Assembly: GCA_017631315.1 (NCBI GenBank)
Contig: JAGBTN010000012.1
Coordinates: 124,001 to 188,000, forward strand
Direction of reading: 5' to 3'
Source: Bacteroidaceae bacterium
Lineage (GTDB): Bacteria > Bacteroidota > Bacteroidia > Bacteroidales > Bacteroidaceae
Length of the DNA stretch: 64,000 bases
A program made the translations under genes and the position numbers. Shown one piece after another: positions 28,303-57,400 of this stretch. How positions within the stretch are numbered: position 1 is the first letter of the stretch; each line of letters starts with the position of its first letter. Below the pieces are notes generated by a model. It did not search any database and had not been told where the DNA came from. It saw nothing but the letters and a program-made list of their open reading frames with translations.

Positions 28303-28917
28303 ATGATGACGAACAAAATATCTACGGAAATCGCAGGAATGACGCCTGGCATGGTGTTCTTTCCTTCAGACCTGGCAAAGGTGGGAACCAAGTCGTCCCA
28401 TGTGCTGAAGGTGTTGGAGAGGGAAACCAAGGCTGGTACGATACTCAGGCTGGCCCAGGGAGTGTATTATTACCCCAAGACGGATGATAAATACGGTTTG
28501 GGCGTGATATACCCATCCTACGAAGAGGTGGCTGAAAGGATTGCCGAAAGGGATAAGATTACCATTGTTCCGACGGGTGCCTATGCCTTGAACAAACTTG
28601 GGTTCTCCACACAAGTCCCCATGAATCTTGTCTATATGACCGACGGTACCTCGAAGACCATCAAGATGAGCAACGGCTATTCCATCAAGTTCGTCCACAC
28701 GACACAGAAGAACCTGGCTTATAAGAACAGGCTGTTGCAGATGCTGGTCTTTGCCCTGAAGGATATTGGAAAGGACAATATCACCGAGGAACAGACTGCA
28801 AGGGTCAGGACACTCCTACAGAACACTCCGCTGGAACAGATCCGTGATGACTTGGGACTGATGCCAGCATGGATTAAAGATTTTATATTAAAACAGTATG
28901 AGCAACAAGTATTTTGA
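28303..28917 (+). CDS. AbiEi-like antitoxin (DUF6088 type)
   Basis: A 204-aa protein with an N-terminal winged-helix part (GMVFFPSDLAKVGTKSSHVL, ERETKAGTILRLAQGVYYYP), then an AbiEi-like core (GAYALNKLGFSTQVPMNLVY). It overlaps the toxin gene by 20 bases. In the type IV AbiE system the antitoxin represses the operon and counters the nucleotidyltransferase toxin without direct binding. Both features fit here by family and gene order. Confidence 0.8.
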   Translation: MMTNKISTEIAGMTPGMVFFPSDLAKVGTKSSHVLKVLERETKAGTILRLAQGVYYYPKTDDKYGLGVIYPSYEEVAERIAERDKITIVPTGAYALNKLGFSTQVPMNLVYMTDGTSKTIKMSNGYSIKFVHTTQKNLAYKNRLLQMLVFALKDIGKDNITEEQTARVRTLLQNTPLEQIRDDLGLMPAWIKDFILKQYEQQVF

Positions 28918-29932
28918 GATAGACGATGAAGGAAAGAAACTCTTCATCACACAAACAGCACTGAAGACAGGGCTACCAGCCGCTGTGATTGAGAAAGACC
29001 TGTGGGTGACGGTTGTGCTGCAACTGGTGTTCCAACTGTCTTTTGCTGACAGGATTATCTTCAAGGGTGGTTCCAGTCTTTCCAAGACATGGGACTTGAT
29101 AGGTCGCATGTCAGAGGACGTTGACCTTGCCTACGACAGCAACTTTGGCATCTTTGAGGGCGATGAGCCGACTGTCAAGCAGATTAAGAAACTGAGGAAG
29201 CAATCTTCTCTGTTCGTACAGAACGAGTTTTGCGAGGCACTGAAGTCAGCCATCACCAAGGCTGGACTAGATGACTGGTGTTCTGTGGAAGCGCAGCCTA
29301 ACGGCACAGGAAACGACACCTACCCAGAACCACGCCAATTGTACATCAGCTACAAGTCATTGTTCGAGGATAAATTGGCAGACACAAGTTACGCATACGT
29401 CAAGCCCATTGTCATGCTGGAAGTCAGTTCCAGGTCTCTTATTGAGCCAACGGGCAAGGCAAAAGTGAAGAGCATGATTGCACGTGAGTTCGCCAACATT
29501 GACACCGACGTTGCCGACACCGACATCCGTACCGCCTTGCCCGAGAAGACCTTCCTCGAAAAAGTTTTCCTATTGCATGAAATGTTCGTCACGGACAGAT
29601 GCCAGAGGGCAGAGCGGAAATCTCGCCACCTGTACGATATTGAGCGGATGATGGACAAGGATTTTGCCTTGCAGGCTGTCAAGGATGATGCCCTTTGGAA
29701 TAGCATCAATCGCCATCGCGCCCACTTCTCTTCCATCCACGGCGTTGACTACACCAAAGATTTGAGAAAGGAAATCAGGCTTACTCCACCAGATGAAGTC
29801 ATGTCTCTATGGGAAGAGGACTACAAATACATGCATGAGCACATGATTTACGACGGTACGGCATTATCTTTTTCCGACCTCATGGCTCGTATGCATGAAC
29901 TGGAAGAACGGTTTCACAACTGTCTGTCTTGA
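28898..29932 (+). CDS. AbiEii/AbiGii-family nucleotidyltransferase toxin
   Basis: A 344-aa nucleotidyltransferase. The catalytic motif is IIFKGGSSLSKTWDLIGRMS followed by EDVDLAYD, that is G-S-x..D-x-D of the DNA polymerase beta fold. The Lys of VIEKDLWVTVVLQ and the C-terminal KTFLEKVFLLHEMFV helix also match. AbiEii toxins transfer nucleotides to tRNA or other acceptors and arrest growth, aborting phage infection. It is coupled to the antitoxin gene by a 20-base overlap and ends at a strong terminator. Confidence 0.85.
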   Translation: MSNKYFEIDDEGKKLFITQTALKTGLPAAVIEKDLWVTVVLQLVFQLSFADRIIFKGGSSLSKTWDLIGRMSEDVDLAYDSNFGIFEGDEPTVKQIKKLRKQSSLFVQNEFCEALKSAITKAGLDDWCSVEAQPNGTGNDTYPEPRQLYISYKSLFEDKLADTSYAYVKPIVMLEVSSRSLIEPTGKAKVKSMIAREFANIDTDVADTDIRTALPEKTFLEKVFLLHEMFVTDRCQRAERKSRHLYDIERMMDKDFALQAVKDDALWNSINRHRAHFSSIHGVDYTKDLRKEIRLTPPDEVMSLWEEDYKYMHEHMIYDGTALSFSDLMARMHELEERFHNCLS

Positions 29933-46424: not shown

Positions 46425-46439
46425 ACGAAATCAGCCTTC

Positions 46440-46549
46440 GTATTTGCAAGTAATTTTATATCAACAACTTGCACTTTAAACGACAGAAAAGTCCCGACGT
46501 GGATTCTGTGAAGGACAAAAAGAACAAAGATTTAACATTTTTAACTTTC
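46440..46549 (+). repeat. Diverged direct repeat, left copy (flanks the cargo operon)
   Basis: GTATTTGCAA...TTTATATCAACAACTTG...TTAAACGACAGAA...ATTTTTAACTTT aligns without gaps to 52984-53093. Both copies read (F/L)YINNL(H/Y)(F/V)KRQ at one end and DLTFLTF at the other in the same frame. The copy here has a stop codon directly before the frame, so it is probably a remnant. Confidence 0.6.
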
Positions 46550-46556
46550 TGCAACG

Positions 46557-47870
46557 CTAAAAACTTGTAAATCCCATCCTAGTACTATGTGCTGCATATC
46601 TACTTCCAACAGCATTTACAAATTCATCCTTAAAGGCAAAAAGAGGTTCATGCAAAGTTTTAAACAAATCGCATTCTTCCTCAGAAATTAACATGTTCAA
46701 ATCAAAGATTATAGACATAATAGTTTTATCAAGAACAAAATATAAGTCAGGAAAGTATACATTCTCTCCGAGTTTTGTTTTTCTGTCTTTATTTAAGTCC
46801 TTTATACTATTATATTCATTTTCTGTACAAATTAAGCCGATTACATATCGATGAGTTCTTTTCTTCTCATGCGCATAGTCACAAGCAGCACTTATCTCCA
46901 TAGCCACAACTTGGTATTGGTATTGTTCTTTAATCTTGTAGTGATTTCCTAGGAGATGGTCATTCAACCAAGTTACTGTTCCATACCCAAACCTATTTTT
47001 GAAATAATCTTCATCATTTTTGAAGGTTCTTACGCAACCACGTTGGTTTGGCTCGTATACATTGGGATTAATATGCAAAATCGCATTTAGATATGGCGCT
47101 ATACCATCTATACTAATACTGTTAAAAAAACTTTTGTTCTTTTCTGAAATTTGAAGATATTCTTCCCATGTTTTTTTACCATTATTGCATAGTTCATAAC
47201 CGAAAATAGGAGCCAGTACATCTTTTATAGCACGATCAGGATCAGTATGACCATTTTGGTAGCCATGAGAGGCCCAAGCAATCTTGGCAAACACCTCTTT
47301 GAACCTCTTCTCAAAGTTTTCATGCTTACCCCACTCCTCTTCAACTTCAATGAGACTTGTAATGTTTGACAAACTCACATCAGCAGCCTCAGCTAATTCA
47401 TCATTGACAGAAAATAGACACTTAACTAAAGGATTATCAACAATTGTATCTACAAACGGAGACAAAGAATCATCATTTTCTCCAAAGCTATTCTTATCCA
47501 TTGGAATAATTTTGATAGGATTGGCGATCTGACCTTTATTTCCTTCACGATTTGCAAATATTTTAAACTTTTCTATATCGTTAACATTCGTAGTCCAGAA
47601 AGCAAGAATAAATGTCCTATTCTTAATTGGTATAAAATGCTTAATTGCATCAAACAGTGTTGCAAACATTGCATTTTCGTCTCCAGAATTTTGTAGGTTG
47701 ATATCAAAGAACGCTATTTTAACACCATCTAATGGTTTTTCTGGCAGTGACATCACGTCATATAGAATAGTCTTACATCCAATTCCATGAGTGTTGAATA
47801 CACGTGCAATTCTTTCTAAATCTGTCTTGCTGTCATCTACAACAATGATACTATTATTTTCGCGTAACAT
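46557..47870 (-). CDS. Receiver-like protein of the cargo operon
   Basis: A 437-aa protein. The first 130 residues look like a response-regulator receiver: the acidic pair in IIVVDDSKTD (D12, D13), a possible phospho-acceptor Asp56 in VKIAFFDINLQ, Thr93/94 in FILAFWTTN and a Lys near 126 in IIPMDKNSFG. The remaining 300 residues are of unknown fold with no visible DNA-binding motif (WASHGYQNGHTDPDRAIKDV, EYLQISEKNKSFFNSISIDG), so it is not a usual transcription regulator. It is the last gene of the operon, 5 bases after the kinase-like gene, which suggests it receives a signal from it. Confidence 0.65.
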   Translation of the reverse strand: MLRENNSIIVVDDSKTDLERIARVFNTHGIGCKTILYDVMSLPEKPLDGVKIAFFDINLQNSGDENAMFATLFDAIKHFIPIKNRTFILAFWTTNVNDIEKFKIFANREGNKGQIANPIKIIPMDKNSFGENDDSLSPFVDTIVDNPLVKCLFSVNDELAEAADVSLSNITSLIEVEEEWGKHENFEKRFKEVFAKIAWASHGYQNGHTDPDRAIKDVLAPIFGYELCNNGKKTWEEYLQISEKNKSFFNSISIDGIAPYLNAILHINPNVYEPNQRGCVRTFKNDEDYFKNRFGYGTVTWLNDHLLGNHYKIKEQYQYQVVAMEISAACDYAHEKKRTHRYVIGLICTENEYNSIKDLNKDRKTKLGENVYFPDLYFVLDKTIMSIIFDLNMLISEEECDLFKTLHEPLFAFKDEFVNAVGSRYAAHSTRMGFTSF

Positions 47871-47875
47871 ATTTT

Positions 47876-50029
47876 TTATTTTGAATTAGGGAAAACAAGA
47901 ACAACACAGGCACCATTATACTCAGCGCCAAACCCTGCGTCTTTTGGCTCTACAAATAGCAATTTGCCTTTAGACATCTCCATGACAAGGTTTACATAAT
48001 ATAGTCCGACCCCCATTCCATTTGGTTTCATAGTTCTAAATGGCAATATAACATCTTCAGGATTCATTAAGAATCCCACACCATTATCTGCAATAGCAAT
48101 TGCTGGGCCATCAAAATGTTCTGTATCCATTTTTATGCAGATTGAACAATTATATATACCTTGCAACATTTCCCTTTTCCTACATACCCAATAAATTGCG
48201 TTATCAATGATGTTAGAAAGAGCACTCATTACTAAACCTCCTGCAACATACACAGAAAAATCTTTGGAACGATCATATTCCAGATTCACCTTATGGTAGG
48301 CCATTCTGTTCTTATGAATACCTAATGCTTTTTCAATAATAGTTGATGCTTGCAATTGAGAAGCCTTATTTTTCCTCATCAGGGGTGAGAATTTTTCGAG
48401 GATGTCCATCAGGCTTTTTACGCGCATTCTGATATCTTCTATATCACAACCACGTTTGTTTATGTCTGAATTGATATATCCCAATTCACGAACTAACTCA
48501 TGAAATACTATAGACAAATTCAATCCACTCATGCCTGCACCTAACATAACATCACGCATATTGTTATATTCGTGCTTAATACGGTTGATTATTGGAGCGA
48601 ACTCTTTGTCAAGATTTCTTTTCTGTAGTTTTGTAGACAACTCTTCTATTGCATCAGAGAATACTGGCCGCTTATTAACATTTATATTCTCGATATAAGC
48701 TCTCACTTTATCCCTGTCATTAACAGCTAAACGTTCAAAATGATTGAAAACGGATTTAACAATGAAGACCAATAGTGAAAACGTCTCATTTTCTATAAAC
48801 CCTTCACGATTTGTTTTTTCAATAAGTGTATCTTTGGTCTCTTTGAGATTCAGATTGATAGCACCAACTGTCTGTCCCTTTGCAAAGTGGTTGCCCGCTC
48901 TTCTCATTTTTTGCTGATCCAAGCCAAGCCAATCATCTGTAGGTTCTCCATAATTATATACTCGTATATTATCCCGAAAAACCTTTATTCCACATTGCGA
49001 AGCCACATAATCTTTCACTTTACCTACAGAACCACTACCAAACGTAGGTGTAATAATCTTAGTATCCATTGAGAATGCATAGAATTCACCTTCTATCGTA
49101 CCAATATTTGAAAGATGTTTATTCTTTAATAGTTGAATGTCCATACTTTCTTCAATGGGGAAATCTTTACTACTTATTGAAAGTACATCAGACTCTGTCG
49201 AAGAGTTATTTTCTTCTAAAACAGATATATTTATCGGTTTAAATTGATAGCACCACGAATATTTTGCATTATCATCGTCGTTACTTGATGGAATTAGTCT
49301 GAATTTAAAGTGAAAAAGTGCGCTATCAAGAAAGTCTGCTTGTGTTCTTACACTTTCTATCCATTCCGTTACTTTGGCTTCATTTGAACTCACAATAATC
49401 TCAAAATCATCATTTTTGCTGAAGGGATTTTGGATAAGCATCAACTTGCTTACTACGTCAACAACTTTTGCACGAGTCCAATGCGCATCACGCAGCCCAT
49501 GTAATATTATTTTAGTACCATGGCTACAACCCAAAGTAGATTGTATGCCATGTTCAATATTGACTTTCATTCCCTCAATATAATCTGAAGAACCAATCAA
49601 GTCATTCCAATTAATTGATAGTCTAGAAGCAGTCAAGTTAGTTGCAGTCTTTGTTTCTAGGATTACATTGTTTGCTAGTCGATGTACAGCCAATCTACCG
49701 ACCCCCTTGTTCCCAAGCGAGGTTCTGTGCTTGGTTTTACTTTGTTTAACTTCCTGACGTTTGTAGTCCGTTCCAATTGTCAACCATGCATTACTTAATG
49801 TCTCTACACTCATACCTACACCATCGTCTTCGATAGTAATCATAGATTTCCCTTCGAGTAAATTCTCAAAATGTATTCTAACGAAAGAAGCATCCGCATC
49901 GTAAGAATTCTTTACCAACTCGAATAACGCAAGGCTATTACTACCGATAAGTTCATCGCCCAAAAGTGTAATAATATGAGAACTAGCCTTAACAGAGTAT
50001 GCTCTTATTTCTTTATTGTAAATATCCAT
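47876..50029 (-). CDS. Dual-GHKL protein: Hsp90/MutL-like N-terminal and histidine-kinase-like C-terminal ATPase
   Basis: A 717-aa protein. Residues 15-200 form a first GHKL ATPase: FELVKNSYDADA (N box, Glu37 and Asn41), IEDDGVGM (Asp69) and SLGNKGVGRLAVHRLA. This type occurs in Hsp90, MutL and MORC. Residues about 490-717 look like a histidine kinase: a His near 510 in IVFHELVRELGYI, NIIDNAIYW, IADNGVGF and NGMGVGLYYVNL. No transmembrane segment is seen. The residues needed for ATP binding are present in both halves. It follows the AlbA_2 gene by 11 bases and precedes the receiver-like gene by 5. A role in sensing and signalling, perhaps in defence, is inference. Confidence 0.8.
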   Translation of the reverse strand: MDIYNKEIRAYSVKASSHIITLLGDELIGSNSLALFELVKNSYDADASFVRIHFENLLEGKSMITIEDDGVGMSVETLSNAWLTIGTDYKRQEVKQSKTKHRTSLGNKGVGRLAVHRLANNVILETKTATNLTASRLSINWNDLIGSSDYIEGMKVNIEHGIQSTLGCSHGTKIILHGLRDAHWTRAKVVDVVSKLMLIQNPFSKNDDFEIIVSSNEAKVTEWIESVRTQADFLDSALFHFKFRLIPSSNDDDNAKYSWCYQFKPINISVLEENNSSTESDVLSISSKDFPIEESMDIQLLKNKHLSNIGTIEGEFYAFSMDTKIITPTFGSGSVGKVKDYVASQCGIKVFRDNIRVYNYGEPTDDWLGLDQQKMRRAGNHFAKGQTVGAINLNLKETKDTLIEKTNREGFIENETFSLLVFIVKSVFNHFERLAVNDRDKVRAYIENINVNKRPVFSDAIEELSTKLQKRNLDKEFAPIINRIKHEYNNMRDVMLGAGMSGLNLSIVFHELVRELGYINSDINKRGCDIEDIRMRVKSLMDILEKFSPLMRKNKASQLQASTIIEKALGIHKNRMAYHKVNLEYDRSKDFSVYVAGGLVMSALSNIIDNAIYWVCRKREMLQGIYNCSICIKMDTEHFDGPAIAIADNGVGFLMNPEDVILPFRTMKPNGMGVGLYYVNLVMEMSKGKLLFVEPKDAGFGAEYNGACVVLVFPNSK

Positions 50030-50040
50030 ATTGAATCATT

Positions 50041-51423
50041 CTAAGAGTAAATATTAACCACGGTCCACTTCCCGTCATTGTCCTTGCCTTCACGCTTCAA
50101 AACACCACGCTTCTGCAAAGCTGAGAGGTCACGTTCGATGGTACGTTGGCTCACCGACAAAGTCTCCGACATTTGTTTGCCGGTGATTGTCGGAGACTCT
50201 TTGATGAGATTGAGGATTTTCTGCTGACGCTCAGTGAGTTTCGTCTCCGACATGTCTCCGTCATGGTCTCCGACATTAGAGGTGTCGGAAGAGGCGAAGA
50301 TGACGGTCTGGAATTGGGTTGGAGTAGATTTGAACACAGGCTTCAGCTCGTCTTTATAACCTGCCAAGGCTTTGGTCTCATTACAAATGCGTGTGAGTCC
50401 GCTACCTCGTTTCTCCATATAGTCAAGTTGAGCCATCACATTTGCAAGTATGGGATTACGCCTTTCAGAAGACACATCTTTGATGTCCAAATTCTGTATC
50501 AGCACACCATTGTACATCCCTCCTGGGGATGTTACAGTGAGGCGGTCATCGTAAATGTCAAGATGAACTTCACTACCCATTACGGTGTAGTCACGATGGA
50601 TGAAATGGTTTACCATTGCTTCAAGAACTGCTCGCTCAGCATACTCCGGCTTGTTCTTTCGTCCATCAGGCAGTTTCTCCCAGCCTCTCTTGGTGTTAGA
50701 CTTGACGAAGTTCATGGCTTCACGGAGCAGCATGAGGACATTGCCTGTAAACTCTGCATCATTGATAGCATCGCCCTTTTCCGTTCCATCCCATCGGGTA
50801 CAATAAAGGCGAGATTGCCATAAAGGACAATCATCGGCGAACATTGCACCTGCATTCGTTAGGTGTCCTGCACCTGTCACAAGACCAAATGATAATAAAT
50901 ACTTCTTGTCCCATTCTTGTTTGGTGCGGTCTTTGAACGAGTTCGCCAATATCGTAAAGGAATAGTCTTCTGCTTTATAGTCTGTGTGAAGGGAATCAAA
51001 AGTTTTGTTGGAACCTTTCAGTACCAAGCGAACCATCTGTTCTGCCGTGGCAGGAAGACTTTCATCACCAATTCGAACAAATGCAATACGCTGACCATCT
51101 CCAACATAGTAATATGGGGTATAATGCCCTGCGTTGACTTTGAGTTGCATGACATGTAAACCATCTATATCATGGGGAATCATCTCCACTTCTGGCAGGG
51201 GATCCATATAGTCACGAATCCTGCTACTGATGGCCTCGCATACATGCTGCACGTCATTAAGACCTTTGACGATGCCGTCATTATCAATGCCAAAGAAAAG
51301 GGAACCACCCAGGCCATTGGCAAAGGCACTTACACTCTTCAACCAACTCTTAGGTTTCTTCTCTTCAAGCATCACCTTGAAGTCGTATGCTGTACATTCG
51401 CTTATAAGATTATTTAATTTCAT
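50041..51423 (-). CDS. AlbA_2 / GHKL-like / winged-helix protein
   Basis: A 460-aa protein with three parts. Residues about 12-125 form an AlbA_2 (Schlafen-like) domain: SVSAFANGLGGSLFFGIDND. Residues about 260-345 resemble HATPase_c_4: ERAVLEAMVNHFIHRDY, LTVTSPGGMYNG and KRGSGLTRICNE. The last 70 residues are a winged helix: LTERQQKILNLIKESPTITG and LSVSQRTIERDLSALQKRGV. Such proteins are widespread and often called putative transcriptional regulators or ATP-dependent DNA-binding proteins; some occur in defence islands. It overlaps the upstream gene by 14 bases and probably controls or serves the operon. Confidence 0.82.
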   Translation of the reverse strand: MKLNNLISECTAYDFKVMLEEKKPKSWLKSVSAFANGLGGSLFFGIDNDGIVKGLNDVQHVCEAISSRIRDYMDPLPEVEMIPHDIDGLHVMQLKVNAGHYTPYYYVGDGQRIAFVRIGDESLPATAEQMVRLVLKGSNKTFDSLHTDYKAEDYSFTILANSFKDRTKQEWDKKYLLSFGLVTGAGHLTNAGAMFADDCPLWQSRLYCTRWDGTEKGDAINDAEFTGNVLMLLREAMNFVKSNTKRGWEKLPDGRKNKPEYAERAVLEAMVNHFIHRDYTVMGSEVHLDIYDDRLTVTSPGGMYNGVLIQNLDIKDVSSERRNPILANVMAQLDYMEKRGSGLTRICNETKALAGYKDELKPVFKSTPTQFQTVIFASSDTSNVGDHDGDMSETKLTERQQKILNLIKESPTITGKQMSETLSVSQRTIERDLSALQKRGVLKREGKDNDGKWTVVNIYS

Positions 51424-52210
51424 CTGTTTTCGTGTCCTGATGATTGGTGTTTTGTTGTGGGACCGCCATCTGCAGGAATCTATTTGTAAGATTTGAACCT
51501 TGCATCAGATTATCATATGTTTCTTGAGCCCAAAACAAGTAATTATCCCACAAACCTGTAGAGACTTCAGCTTTTAATTCATCAAGTTTATCTTTATTAG
51601 GAGTGCCATCCTTGTGAAAGTACATGTTTGATGTTACCTGAGACTTAAATACCCAAATAGCTTTCTTCTCTCCCCATGAGTAAGATGTCAACCAAGATTC
51701 TGGATAGTATATCATCTCCTCATCCTTCTTGTATGTACTATGTGCTAATGTGTTTTCAATAAATCTCCTCGCTAAACTTCGTAAAGTTTCTATTCGTAAG
51801 TTTTCTGAAAAATATTTATCAGGATCTTCATAAAACAAATGATCACAATACCCGTGGTCTATCTGATTTTTAGCATCATCCAGAAAATCTTTGTCAATTA
51901 CATCATTGTTTAGTTGAATGTTCTTGATGTCGAATGGTGTATTCACAGGTGTTTGTATAGGTAACCCTACTTTATGCAAAGCAACTATCACTGCGCGTTT
52001 TTCTGCAATATTCAGCTTAGTATTCAATTCTTGACAAGCTTTATTATAAGTGCCATTATACTTGGCGTACACTTTGATTATCTCCAATGCACGAATTGCA
52101 ATGGCACGAACTTTCTTAACCTTGTTTTCTTCACGCTTAGCAAGAAAAAAAGTTCCAAAATAAGTTCCAATTAATGCACATGCAAGTGCTGTTGTAATAT
52201 CAACCCACAT
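51410..52210 (-). CDS. Membrane-anchored protein of unknown function, first gene of the cargo operon
   Basis: A 266-aa protein with one N-terminal helix (ITTALACALIGTYFGTFFLA) followed by basic residues, so the bulk is probably cytoplasmic. The soluble part is helical and charged (RALEIIKVYAKYNGTYNKAC, ENLRIETLRSLARRFIENTL). I recognise no family. It starts directly downstream of the promoter and palindrome at 52254-52290. Membrane anchoring next to signalling ATPases would fit a sensor or effector. Confidence 0.65.
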   Translation of the reverse strand: MWVDITTALACALIGTYFGTFFLAKREENKVKKVRAIAIRALEIIKVYAKYNGTYNKACQELNTKLNIAEKRAVIVALHKVGLPIQTPVNTPFDIKNIQLNNDVIDKDFLDDAKNQIDHGYCDHLFYEDPDKYFSENLRIETLRSLARRFIENTLAHSTYKKDEEMIYYPESWLTSYSWGEKKAIWVFKSQVTSNMYFHKDGTPNKDKLDELKAEVSTGLWDNYLFWAQETYDNLMQGSNLTNRFLQMAVPQQNTNHQDTKTDEIK

Positions 52211-52253
52211 AGGAAAATTCGAATCTGTTTAACTATAATGAATTATGTATACA

Positions 52254-52271
52254 GGCGTATATATATACGCC
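52254..52271. promoter_or_regulatory. 18-bp perfect palindrome, candidate operator of the cargo operon
   Basis: GGCGTATATATATACGCC is a perfect palindrome. It lies 12-29 bases after the -7 box in the minus-strand direction, covering the start of the transcript. A dimeric regulator is the usual ligand of such a site. Confidence 0.5.
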
Positions 52272-52282
52272 CAATATAGCCA

Positions 52283-52290
52283 CAAAGTTA
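52283..52290 (-). promoter_or_regulatory. -7 element of the cargo operon promoter
   Basis: On the minus strand TAACTTTG matches the TAnnTTTG consensus, about 73 bases before the ATG at 52210. The -33 region is T-rich without a clean TTTG. Confidence 0.5.
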
Positions 52291-52454
52291 ATGAATTAAC
52301 TTCAGAAATGGGAAAAAACATTGTTACAATCTCTTTATTTTATGCATTTTTTATTGGTAAAGATGGCAAAACAAGGAACTTTTGAGCCGTTTTTTGTTTA
52401 TTTAATGAGGTTACATGACGAATTATCAATAAAAAATGTGTACCTTTGCCACCT

Positions 52455-52985
52455 CTAAATCCTTATAGCCTTCTTAGTTGCATATACGCTGATGTTGTAG
52501 GTTGCTGTGAGTTTTATCTTATTATTATAGTGTTTCTTGATGTCTGTATCCGTTATTTCAGAGACAAAATCCACACCTTCTGTCTCACTATCATACACGA
52601 GTTCACCGTTTATGTATGATATTGTAGGTATGGCACATTTTTTTCAGGTACTACTGGTTCGTCTCCATCGCTCAACGCAACAATTATCCCGAAGCTACTC
52701 CAAGGAGCTGTTGACTTATATTTAATTATCGCCACCGCTGGAACGTGAAGGGTTGCATATTCTGGATATGATTTATCAAAGGCAGAGGTTTCTGTTTTGG
52801 CAATTTTTCGGCAAAGCAAAACACATCTTCTATGTTTTCACATTGAGCGAAAGCATTGTTTCCAATGTCTTTGACACTCTCAGGTATTGTTACTGTTGTT
52901 AGTTTCTTGCAGCCAATAAACGCCTCGCCAATAATAGTTACGCTGTTTGGTAATGCTATTGAAGTTAGGCTGCTAAATGTTTTGT
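52455..52985 (-). pseudogene. Broken BspA-like leucine-rich-repeat surface protein
   Basis: The minus strand reads BspA-type repeats (SLTSIALPNSVTIIGEAFIG, KLTTVTIPESVKDIGNNAFA), then shifts frame near 52800 into TSAFDKSYPEYATLHVPAVA. It shifts again near 52645 into ISYINGELVYDSETEGVDFV and ITDTDIKKHYNNKIKL, ending at TAG 52457-52455. Two frameshifts and a missing start make it a remnant of a Prevotella-type BspA surface protein. Intact relatives use VPxxxxxxYKSTxPWSxF as their closing unit, which is visible here. Confidence 0.75.
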
Positions 52986-53093
52986 ATTTGCAACTATCTT
53001 TATATCAATAACTTGTATGTTAAACGGCAGAATGGTGATGACGCAGGTTCTGCTGATGTAGTAGAAGATGAAGATTTGACGTTTTTAACTTTT
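52984..53093 (+). repeat. Diverged direct repeat, right copy
   Basis: An ungapped match to 46440-46549, about 78 of 109 bases identical in my hand alignment. The frame reads LYINNLYVKRQNGDDAGSAD and EDEDLTFLTFVN then stop. It abuts the BspA-like remnant. Confidence 0.6.
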
Positions 53094-53102
53094 GTAAACT
53101 AA

Positions 53103-53455
53103 AGCGAATTCAACAAGCAAGTACAAATTTACAACAAGTAATTAAAAACTCCTCAATTGGTGTTGAGAAATAGAGTTTTTTTCTTGGTCTAATATTGATT
53201 TTCGTTGCGATTACATTGATATTGTTGTCTTTTAGATGTTTTATTGGTGTTGACTTGGGTATATATTGTCTGATGAGTCCGTTTACATTCTCTATGGATC
53301 CTTTCTGCCATGATGAATACGGGCCTGTGAAGTAGACGGTGGTGTTCAACCCCATTGCTATTGCCTTGCGGTTGCAGAATTCCGTTCCGTTGTCTGTTGT
53401 TACAGTCATTAAGTCCTTACTATCCGAAACAGAATAATAATACCTTCTTAACCAG
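53103..53455 (-). pseudogene. IS30-family transposase remnant (C-terminal part)
   Basis: The frame 53409-53110 gives TVTTDNGTEFCNRKAIAMGL, VYFTGPYSSWQKGSIENVNG and LIRQYIPKSTPIKHL, which are the second Asp and the Glu regions of the IS30 DDE domain. The N-terminal half is missing; upstream only a short, unrelated-looking stretch remains. Inactive. The gap 53456-53621 holds a short frame MNDFWDSFGKKRDKNRKYHY but nothing certain. Confidence 0.8.
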
Positions 53456-53621
53456 CAGTACGTTTTATCTTCGAAGGCTGATTCTACAAAGGGAGATGTT
53501 GCTGTGCAAGATGTGAATCACAGACCTTCTTTGAACAATCTAAGACAAACATGTATAATGATACTTCCGATTCTTATCTCGTTTTTTACCAAATGAATCC
53601 CAAAAATCGTTCATCTTGAGT

Positions 53622-54074
53622 CTATCTACCTGTCTGTTTATGCAACAGTTCCATACATTTGAGACCGTGGTCTGTCTCTATGCCATAGTTTTGTGAACCG
53701 TCAAACCGAAACTCGCCTTGATGCTCTCCGTTTTCATCATGGAACTCGAACATTCCATGACCAAAATCAATGGAAATGAACTGCATTTTCCCGTCTTTGT
53801 TCACAATACTATAGATTTCTCTGAGCGACTTCGCATACTGTCGCTCAAAATCCGAAAGCTCCGCTTCATATGTGTAGTAATTACAACGGCATATCTCGCC
53901 TCCTATCTGCGACGCGTAGCCTTCTAGGGTATCACCTTTATGCCCCATCACCTTGTCGTGAAACTCATGGACGATTCTATTATCTGGAATAGCCGCAACT
54001 TTCTGCTTCGCAACATCCTGCGTTAAGCCATCCTCCATGAACTTTGCCTGCAACTCTCGTTTAAGTATATTCAA
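53622..54074 (-). CDS. Hypothetical protein, 150 aa, possibly truncated
   Basis: A charged protein (MNILKRELQAKFMEDGLTQD, HEFHDKVMGHKGDTLEGYAS, FISIDFGHGMFEFHDENGEH) ending GLKCMELLHKQTGR. No signal peptide or membrane helix is seen. I recognise no family. A MITE-like element lies directly upstream (54078-54212), so its 5' end may have been cut or its promoter replaced. It lies among mobile-element debris. Confidence 0.5.
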   Translation of the reverse strand: MNILKRELQAKFMEDGLTQDVAKQKVAAIPDNRIVHEFHDKVMGHKGDTLEGYASQIGGEICRCNYYTYEAELSDFERQYAKSLREIYSIVNKDGKMQFISIDFGHGMFEFHDENGEHQGEFRFDGSQNYGIETDHGLKCMELLHKQTGR

Positions 54075-54077
54075 TAT

Positions 54078-54212
54078 TATTGGTGTCCGCTAAAAGTTGA
54101 GAGTACCCGAATTATGTGTCTGAATTGCCGATAAACAGGCATTACGGATTCTTTTTTCAAAAAGTAAGCCCCATTCATTCTTCATCTCCATCATTTTTAG
54201 CGGACACCAATA
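54078..54212. mobile_element. 135-bp MITE-like element with perfect 18-bp terminal inverted repeats
   Basis: TATTGGTGTCCGCTAAAA (54078-54095) and its exact complement TTTTAGCGGACACCAATA (54195-54212) bound 99 bases of sequence without a transposase. Both ends finish in TA, which could be a TA target duplication. The rest of 54213-54423 shows no gene. Confidence 0.7.
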
Positions 54213-54423
54213 GTTTTTTTCAATGCACTTCATGCCTAGCTGCCTAGCATTTCCTATGCTGTAGTCATAAAAGGAGAAGGACTGCACAAATCCCTGATGA
54301 AATAATCATGGATTGGTGCAGTCAACAGAATGTAGGATTTATTCGGACAAAGTTAACAAAAGCAACAAAAGTAAATTTGCAACAATATTACTCGAAGACC
54401 AATGGAATACTGTCAAGATATGT

Positions 54424-57400
54424 TCAAACTTCTGCTTTATATCCTACATTATTGTTGCATCGCATCAGTCGCATGTTTTTTTGAGTTGAGAGATTAAGGA
54501 AAATCGGCATTACGAGCACGAGGGCTACGATGGAAAAGAGCAGCCCACCTGTAGAGCCTACGGCAAAGGAATACCAGAAGGGGGAGTCTTTTCCATCAAT
54601 GAAAAATGGAACAAGACCAAGGATGGTAGAGAGGACGGTCAGGAATACCGCCGTTATTTTGTGGCTATATGCTCTTATATATGTTCTCAGTGGCGTTACA
54701 GAAGGATAGGTTGCCTTCAGATTCCTGTATTCACAGACAATATAGATGCCTGCATTCACCGTCAGGCCACTCAGCAATACCATAGAGGCAAAGCCGCCTG
54801 TCCCGAATTCCACTCCTGATAGCCAGTATGTGAGGAATGTGCCAATGAAGGAAACTGGGATGAGAGATATGATGGCAAGCGGCAGTCTGAGCGATTCAAA
54901 CAGGATGCTGCATACAAAGAATATGATGATGATAATGAGTCCTAATAACCAATACTGTGTCCCTTTATCCTGATAATAGCCGTATGAGGTGTTTCTGCAT
55001 TTGTAGCCGACAGGCATCTTCTGATTGAACTCCTCTGTTATGCGCTTAATGTAACGGCTGGTGTAAGTGTAGCTTCCCAAGATATTGAAGGCCACACGCA
55101 GTACATACTCCTGATTCTCCCGGGGAATACAGTTCTTCGCCTCCCGTCTCTCTATCGTCATGAAGTCTGATACACGGTTCTCCTTGTCACCAACCTTCAA
55201 GAAAGAGTTATTCAAACGCCATAGGTCAAACTTGTCCTGCCATGCAGACTTCAGATACATGTCCGAGGAGAAGTGCGTGTCTCTGTAGCGGTCAATGTCT
55301 CTTCCTGTAAGAACCTCGCGCAACTTACCATGAGCGGCAGGGAGGTCAAAGTCATAGAGTGCCATCCTCTCCTTGTCATAGCGCATATATAGCTCGTCCT
55401 CCTGATTCTCATGTCCTGGCGTTTCTATTATCAAGTCAACCACACGGTTGTTCTTTCGCATCTCATCACACATGTCCTCAGCGATGCGATACAGACGGTC
55501 ATAATTATAACCTGCTATCTCTATCCTGTTGGAACGATACTGAAGGTTCAATGAGTTACTGAAACCTCTCTCGCTGACTCCGCTCGTGCTCCAGTCGGCA
55601 CCGCCTATGGAGATAACCTTGCCGATAACTTTATTTTCCAACAGATAGGGGAAAGAGGTGTGTTTGTACTCCTCCTTGAATTCGACTGTCACCGTTGCCC
55701 CCCATCCCTCTACACGCGTTTCAAAGCGCTCTATCTCAGAGAAGCCGGCAAGGAAGTTCTCCAGTATCACGACTTTCTCATTGAGCTGTGCTGCCGTACC
55801 GCCCAATGGCATCTGGGCACGGATGTTCAGGCGTATCTCTTTCTCATCGTTACGACTATAAGTATTCTCAGAAAGCGACTCAGAGAATAACCGCATGGTA
55901 CCACCGAACACTTTTGACAACGGCTCCTTGCAGTCCCTCTGGAAAAAGTCACTTCCAAATGTCGCATTGTAGGCACGTTCGTACCAAGGCTTTGAAACAG
56001 TATCTTCCTGTGGCATTCCGTAGTATCGGTCACCACTCTCCCCCCATTTTGTCGGCAGTGCATGGAAAGGGATTCCGAATGCCAAGATTATCAGTATAAA
56101 GTATATCCACTTGCGTTTCTGGGTGAAGCGGATATAACGGAGATAGAATCGGTTCCACCATCTTGCAAAACGCAGATGTCTTACCCTACCCTGCTGACGA
56201 CTGTGATAGCCCAACTGGTCTATCAGCGCCGGAGCAAATAACCAGCTGACCACGAGAGCAACAGAAAGGTTGATAATGATGATCCAGGCAAAATCATACA
56301 GGTCCTTTTGCAGGAAATCGGGCAGCCACAGGACGACTATCAATGAGCCGATGGTTGTAAGCAGTGCTGCCAATATCGCCAAGAAGGCTTTTCTGTTGTG
56401 GTAATAGCTGTAGTGGTCCACCATCACGACGGCTGCATCAATGACCATACCTAACGATACGGTGATGCCTGCCAGTGAATAGATGTGCAGACGTATGTCA
56501 AAGACATAATAACAGATGACAGCCAAGGCAAGGTTGGCTGCGAGTGTAAGCATCATGATGAGCAGGTAACGCCAATCACGACGTACCAGCCAGACGAAAA
56601 TCAGCAAGATGAACAGCGACAGCGTAGAGCGCCAGATGAGTTTGTTCAACTCACTCTCTTTCTCTTCTGCCCCATCGTGCGTCAGCGTCAGATACACGCC
56701 ACCGCGCAGCCCTTTCTCTATCTCTGCTATTTTCTTCCTAAGTGTCCTTGACAAGGTGATTTTGTTCACATCAGCATCTACATGTATATTCAGGTAGATG
56801 GTGTTCAGCCCGTTCACCCTATAGTAACTGCCTGGCAGACGGTCTTTATATTCGTAGGTGGCGAGGTCACCCAAATAAACCGTCTTGCCATCCACTGCTC
56901 CTATTGGCATCTCCTCTAACGGCTTACCGAATTTCTCGGTGGTAAGATAGAGCGTGCGCTTCTCTTTCTGTCCGCTTGGATGCAGTTCGCCTACCACATC
57001 ACTTTTGCCAAGGAATGACCTTATGCCATTCTCTATGTCGCCTGCAGAGAGCCCATAACTGGATAGGATGAACGGATCGTAGGTTATGACAATGTACTTG
57101 CTGCGTCCTCCTGTCACTTCAACACGCTTCACCTCATCAATCTGGCGAAGAGTCGGCTCCACTTGACGCTCAATGTACTCTTTCAACTGTTCATCACTGA
57201 GGTTCGAGTTAACACGGTAGCTTAGTAATACTTGTGTCGTTTCCTTCCGCTGGTTCTCGTTTACTACCTCGCCGCCTGACAACTCAGGATAGCTCACGCC
57301 TTCCGGTAATTGTTTCCTTATTTGTCTGAGCAGGGAGGCAATCTCAAATTTCGTGGCTGACACGTCGGCATTCTTCTTCAACTCTATGGTCACCCTGCCA

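Follow-up and report, generated by a model that had tools for sequence, protein, structure and literature searches.

A kinase–receiver pair of a restriction-modification-linked kind, carried as an exchangeable cassette on a Bacteroidaceae mobile element

Four closely spaced genes beside the tra region of a Bacteroidaceae element raise the question of whether they form one system and, if not, which of them belong together and what these might do. They lie in a 64,000-nucleotide stretch of DNA (contig JAGBTN010000012.1 of assembly GCA_017631315.1, positions 124,001 to 188,000), here called the window, as four open reading frames on its minus strand between positions 46557 and 52210: RR437 (46557–47870), HK717 (47876–50029), SLFN460 (50041–51423) and TM266 (51410–52210). 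Read in the direction of transcription, the gene spacings are –14, +11 and +5 bases. An earlier note on this DNA had described a four-gene operon, AT-richer than the tra genes, and proposed it as a candidate new defence or signalling system. The open reading frames, spacings, motifs and low GC content are all borne out, as are all three GHKL domains and the pattern of a receiver. As a signalling system on accessory DNA the proposal also stands, and gains a phosphorelay-type pair, a mobile element and a family linked to restriction-modification (R-M); as a new four-gene system it does not. Our best reading is that HK717 and RR437 are a mobile two-gene phosphorelay, acquired as a cassette behind the unrelated SLFN460 in a conjugative element.

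HK717, which resembles a histidine kinase (HK), and RR437, which resembles a response regulator (RR), almost certainly represent a conserved pair of an R-M-linked kind. An HK alignment search gave at least 545 confirmed relatives, the best 80 of which were taken as genome loci. In 77 of these 80, RR follows directly downstream of HK; two of the exceptions have no sequence at that place and the third has no RR in the 456 bases available. Some of these 80 loci also contributed to the RR profile; a search with RR alone in 395 genomes of the phylum gave 10 genomes, the window's included, with HK directly upstream in all ten. Within 5 kb of the 80 HK loci we find a C5-methyltransferase gene in 67, a Vsr gene in 39 and either one in 70, by local profiles made from four and three plasmid genes, respectively, which miss divergent genes; the 67 is a raw count, for which a chance control has been published for the related family (Bellieny-Rabelo et al. 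2021, PMC8011034). Over 44 of the 80 loci, namely those with all three genes present and passing length filters, the pairwise identities of HK and RR correlate with r = 0.90, whereas methyltransferase identity correlates weakly with that of HK (0.21) and RR (0.31); all three values exceed 500 of 500 permutations. The HK–RR pair thus stays together, while the methyltransferase is largely exchanged. The pair also occurs on plasmids, where HK717 has matches in 106 records and RR437 in three, each of the latter adjoining an HK in the same record. Phage records hold no DNA match and three protein matches to HK717, the best at 36% identity over 98%. Among genomes of the genus, 4 of 101 match HK717 at E ≤ 1e-20, namely the window's own and three with partial matches of at most 36% identity.

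The same element is found in another genome of the genus (locus L221), and there the pair is missing. Window positions 50072–54500, covering SLFN460, TM266 and the right flank, match L221 at 97.5% (TM266 at 99.6%), and the last part of the tra region does so at 84%, as far as position 46548. In place of RR437 and HK717, L221 carries 3.8 kb without detectable similarity to the window. Because homology breaks at 46548 and restarts at 50072, the segment 46548–50072, with RR437, HK717 and the last SLFN460 codons, is a replaced cassette and the "four-gene operon" is a composite. The GC contents of RR437 (33.7%), HK717 (35.9%) and SLFN460 (45.6%) likewise set the window genes apart into distinct parts. 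Moreover, SLFN460 homologues are present in 22 of 139 genomes of the genus, against one of 139 for the RR family, the window's genome being counted in both. The four genes are therefore not conserved together, which the earlier note had named as a refutation and which tells against the four-gene claim; the HK–RR core is conserved.

SLFN460, with Schlafen AlbA_2, HATPase_c_4 and helix-turn-helix domains, is thus a separate mobile gene; TM266 is short, with a single hydrophobic segment at its N-terminus and no Pfam match at E ≤ 1. In nine of 12 fetched SLFN460 loci homology ends at window positions 50048–50072, which is the end of the SLFN460 gene; in L226 and L227 it ends about 240–280 bases earlier, and L232 is distant. 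What follows SLFN460 is the start of one 590-residue gene in L221, L229 and L230 (by eye), a DUF1848 gene in L222 and apparently host genes in several others. Possibly SLFN460 is a mobile regulator at the head of exchangeable cassettes. Behind it in L230 (3719–6971) lie the 590-residue protein, without a Pfam match, and a 489-residue TIR_2/SEFIR protein, a two-gene unit that is a possible candidate defence system. A direct repeat of about 112 bp, with copies on the plus strand at the left cassette edge (46437–46548) and to the right of TM266 (52981–53092), may mark recombination edges. The two copies are 75% identical and the only ones in the searched genome assembly, and relatives of the repeat lie near SLFN460 cargo in L222, L223, L230 and L231. 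The second copy adjoins fragments at 52560–53409 that by eye resemble BspA-like leucine-rich-repeat genes, together with a transposase piece weakly matching integrase-core domains.

Gene order and spacing could still mean that TM266 and SLFN460 work with HK717 and RR437 as a four-gene defence system, the more so as SLFN460 heads other defence-like cargo, such as the TIR gene in L230, and has PADLOC matches among the models for pAgo systems (best E 6e-13). We regard this as very improbable given the sister element, in which TM266 and SLFN460 are kept without the pair. In addition, a tblastn search (E ≤ 1e-4) of 198 loci, many of them short or merely distant relatives, finds TM266 at no HK-like locus but the window (L001). 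SLFN460-like genes occur in that set at L110 and L032 alone, where they are distant (25–26%), with 7.8 and about 3 kb, respectively, between them and the HK-like gene; L037 has a SLFN460-like fragment of 20 residues.

HK717 combines a paraMORC-type GHKL ATPase with a histidine-kinase ATPase. Pfam places a HATPase_c_3 domain of the MutL/BbrUII-like kind at residues 33–142 (49604–49933, E 9.7e-24) and a HATPase_c domain at the C-terminus; between them lie a putatively S5-like middle region and a helix with His510 (48500–48502), the predicted phosphorylated histidine. For the N-terminal part the nearest model is that of the BbrUII/HgiDII restriction enzymes (E 2.4e-26, 92.5 bits, where the whole-protein cut-off is 550), and PADLOC REase_II models match it as well; the C-terminal part is closest to sensor kinases. 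We aligned 84 HK sequences, made up of the window's, those of 78 of the 80 genome loci after a length filter, and five others. His510 is present in 84 of 84 and E511 in 78, the N-terminal GHKL residues E37, N41, D68, G70 and G72 are likewise present in all 84, and each position of the K405-T-N-R-E-G410 stretch is kept in 76 to 84. No solved structure is similar to HK717 by sequence at E ≤ 0.001.

RR437 has no Pfam match at E ≤ 1. It is predicted to consist of a receiver domain (residues 5–153, 47412–47858), a helical stalk and an output domain (about residues 272–437, 46560–47057). The predicted receiver fold carries the D-D, D, T/S, K pattern, with the phospho-acceptor D56 at 47703–47705. Fold searches with the full-length protein yield mostly receiver domains, and by sequence no solved structure resembles the output domain at E ≤ 1. 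The model of that domain resembles the SH3-like barrel of the MazF/PemK/Kid, CcdB and CptN toxins, and it probably has a MazF-superfamily fold. A MazF/PemK/CcdB-type output fold, as predicted here, is new for a previously uncharacterised C-terminal domain. VIA-align compared the model with 998 chains, which were Foldseek's best, and lists 50 entries; no restriction-nuclease fold is among the matches listed for the output domain, although this does not prove that there is none. A sequence link to MazF was tried and rejected: the RR family has no Pfam match to PemK_toxin (PF02452), and an hhalign comparison with 26 proteins from PF02452 loci was not significant. Conservation in the output domain was read from 64 of 71 RR proteins, two plasmid rows and five proteins whose called start is not ATG (L065, L071, L078, L111 and L113) having been left out. 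C330 and D331 (46878–46883) are invariant, a C-terminal Arg-x-Gly is near-invariant (R431, at 46578–46580, in 63 of 64; G433 in 62), and R/K414 and H/Y428 are kept in 58 and 61. To judge by this pattern, the Cys-Asp and Arg residues resemble those of an active site or of a strict binding site.

The methyltransferase link is seen among the nearest relatives as well. In the window's clade (support 1.0; L039–L045, 40–47% identical) all seven members carry a methyltransferase; in six of them it directly precedes HK, and in one it lies downstream, on the opposite strand. Ten of the 13 loci without a profile match (all but L049, L070 and L095) were inspected by eye, and in L069 a C5-methyltransferase-like open reading frame lies about 8 kb away. 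Beside HK–RR we also noticed, by eye, divergent C5-methyltransferase-like open reading frames with an unusual SPEC motif, which had escaped the local profile (L055:13438–14409, L068:13403–14260 and L100:13792–14397). C5-methyltransferase genes are annotated nearby on plasmids of Agrobacterium, Rhizobium, Burkholderia and, more distantly related, Campylobacter. A single partner methyltransferase family was considered and rejected: 31 of 73 neighbours, counting that of L040, are at least 43% identical to it, and methyltransferase divergence tracks that of HK or RR weakly. Right after RR in L081 (from 13341) and L083 (from 3876) stands a gene of roughly 220 residues that by eye resembles MutY/HhH-GPD DNA glycosylases; perhaps it stands in for Vsr in repairing deaminated 5-methylcytosine (5mC). 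In L097, L104, L110, L116 and L117 the methyltransferase–HK–RR operon is accompanied by conserved proteins of about 490–510, 930–990, 300–340 and 420–800 residues, of which the first shows GHKL-like motifs by eye. Possibly this set corresponds to one of the MORC-type R-M clusters of Iyer et al. (2008, PMC2292703).

Where the flanks are well covered (61 loci), the methyltransferase shares an operon with HK and RR in 31, and these operons bear on two other explanations of the pair. It might be a two-component system that regulates neighbouring R-M genes, as proposed in the Discussion of PMC8011034, its MazF-like fold then being a non-toxic nucleic-acid-binding output. R-M genes near most loci fit such a role, as do the 19 of 61 loci with extra genes of at least 100 residues in the operon. 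The other 12 operons, however, consist of methyltransferase, HK and RR alone, three of them with Vsr, and so leave no operon nuclease to regulate; Pfam finds in the RR family no output domain of a known DNA-binding type, the Cys-Asp and Arg residues suggest an active or strict binding site, and no C5-methyltransferase or R-M gene is seen beside the window pair. On balance we find this role fairly unlikely. The minimal operons would suit a pair that is itself the restriction part of an R-M system, with the clamp locating unmethylated sites and the RR output cutting the DNA, and both the likeness of the HK717 N-terminus to BbrUII/HgiDII and REase_II models and the Vsr neighbours, which suit a 5mC system, agree with this. 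Such a role is quite unlikely all the same, as the output fold is predicted to be MazF-like and a cutter without its methyltransferase should be lethal to the window's host.

That absence is the main difficulty for our own reading. We found no C5-methyltransferase in the window. The rest of its assembly holds two unlinked ones, whose identity to any of the neighbour methyltransferases does not exceed 39% and 32%, respectively; because the assembly is 87% complete, it is not certain that the partner is missing. Either something other than a simple absence of methylation is the trigger, or the window's copy, placed behind SLFN460, is silent or under a different control. The window pair could even be a passenger, silent or decaying and contributing nothing, given that all seven nearest relatives carry the gene and that the surroundings are a mosaic rich in fragments. 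We hold this to be unlikely, since both open reading frames are full length with their phosphorelay and C-D/R residues intact, and the tight spacing to SLFN460 suggests co-transcription.

HK717 and RR437, whose phosphorelay residues are intact, are quite probably a working phosphorelay. In the mechanism that we propose, the N-terminal GHKL/S5 module of HK717 would work as a clamp, driven by ATP, that probes DNA or a complex formed on it. On detecting a foreign or mis-marked state, as we infer its signal to be, it would switch on the C-terminal kinase, which would autophosphorylate His510 and pass the phosphate to Asp56 of RR437. Phosphorylation would free the MazF/PemK-fold domain to act as a nuclease or as a topoisomerase or translation poison, so that growth stops and the spread of phage or plasmid is blocked. 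In relatives the C5-methyltransferase would supply the self mark, often with Vsr for 5mC repair, and the window copy would be a methyltransferase-free variant, now behind SLFN460. Opinion is evenly divided for us on whether the output domain is a growth-inhibiting effector, and the model as a whole, from clamp sensor through relay to MazF-like effector, stands at about even weight; that the pair defends against phage or plasmids is slightly favoured. More tentatively, and with some doubt, the pair may belong to a widespread, as yet undescribed defence branch that couples a C5-methylation self mark to a phosphorelay-gated, MazF-like suicide effector, with a DNA-clamp histidine kinase in place of an endonuclease. 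If so, a bacterial phosphorelay would tie R-M self-marking to growth arrest of the toxin type. The exchange of the cassette shows in addition that the kinase–receiver pair can travel alone, without the methyltransferase, and the predicted MazF/CcdB-type fold with its Cys-Asp and Arg-x-Gly residues offers a concrete, testable idea of how the receiver protein acts.

Elsewhere in the window, an AbiEi/AbiEii pair lies at 28303–29932, about 16.6 kb from the operon, and PADLOC models agree with this assignment. A promoter scan performs at chance level and terminators are slightly above chance; tandem repeats amount to a single short array.

Among known systems, Detocs is a phosphorelay defence made of the proteins DtcA, DtcB and DtcC, in which the kinase senses infection and a receiver protein carries an effector domain. 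Likened to it by description alone, HK717–RR437 has two genes, a paraMORC-type sensor and a MazF-like output. A PADLOC 2.0.0 scan listed no Detocs, the presence of Detocs models in that release being unchecked. MazF/PemK toxins have catalytic Arg and Thr residues; the invariant or near-invariant residues of RR437 appear to be others (C-D and R-x-G), and its output domain is fused to a receiver. Compared with MazF/PemK/Kid, CcdB and CptN, the output domain has no sequence match and has an insertion between the first two strands, and no antitoxin-like gene lies between or beside HK and RR.

ParaMORC ATPases occur in R-M operons (PMC2292703). With these and with BbrUII/HgiDII, HK717 shares the N-terminal GHKL domain with intact ATPase motifs, the putative S5-like region and the R-M context of its family, but its C-terminus is a histidine-kinase module and not a nuclease or TIR domain. 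VcSduA is a Shedu protein with a paraMORC3-type GHKL domain that acts in phage defence (PMC12137116). There too the GHKL domain is proposed to control an effector, but this is a fused nuclease, and the system has no kinase or receiver. HATPase and REC are among the domains of the predicted, unvalidated systems that DefensePredictor (PMC13092281) reports.

The closest known counterpart is the HEF_HK (PF19191)/Response_reg_2 (PF19192) pair, for which PMC8011034 reports 91.6% linkage, an association with C5-methyltransferases and Vsr, and a suggested descent from paraMORC ATPases. HK717 likewise has HATPase_c_3, a His-Glu helix and HATPase_c, with a receiver-like protein adjacent, its relatives are likewise near C5-methyltransferase and Vsr genes, and both receiver proteins are without a further known domain. 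Architecture, pairing and methyltransferase/Vsr link having thus been published in 2021, the kind of system is not new, contrary to what the earlier note had proposed. The window locus differs in having no methyltransferase, and its proteins lie outside both Pfam models. PF19191 has no match at E ≤ 1 in HK717, nor in L039, L018 and L021, and the distant relative L027 matches at E 0.0037, below the cut-off; PF19192 has no match in RR437 at E ≤ 1 and none in 64 RR family members at E ≤ 0.01. Because of this we do not file HK717–RR437 as a member but treat it as a related branch that works alike. A profile–profile comparison of the RR family with three PF19192 proteins, aligning 95 receiver columns (E 3.5e-7, probability 93), indicates that the two are related. 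By eye, the PF19192 proteins L233, L234 and L236 also have a C-terminal CD and RVG signature. HEF_HK/Response_reg_2 pairs have been listed since 2021 with no output domain or fold given in the available part of PMC8011034, whereas RR437 has a predicted MazF-type one; if that prediction is right, the same MazF-like output domain would serve the Response_reg_2 family as well.

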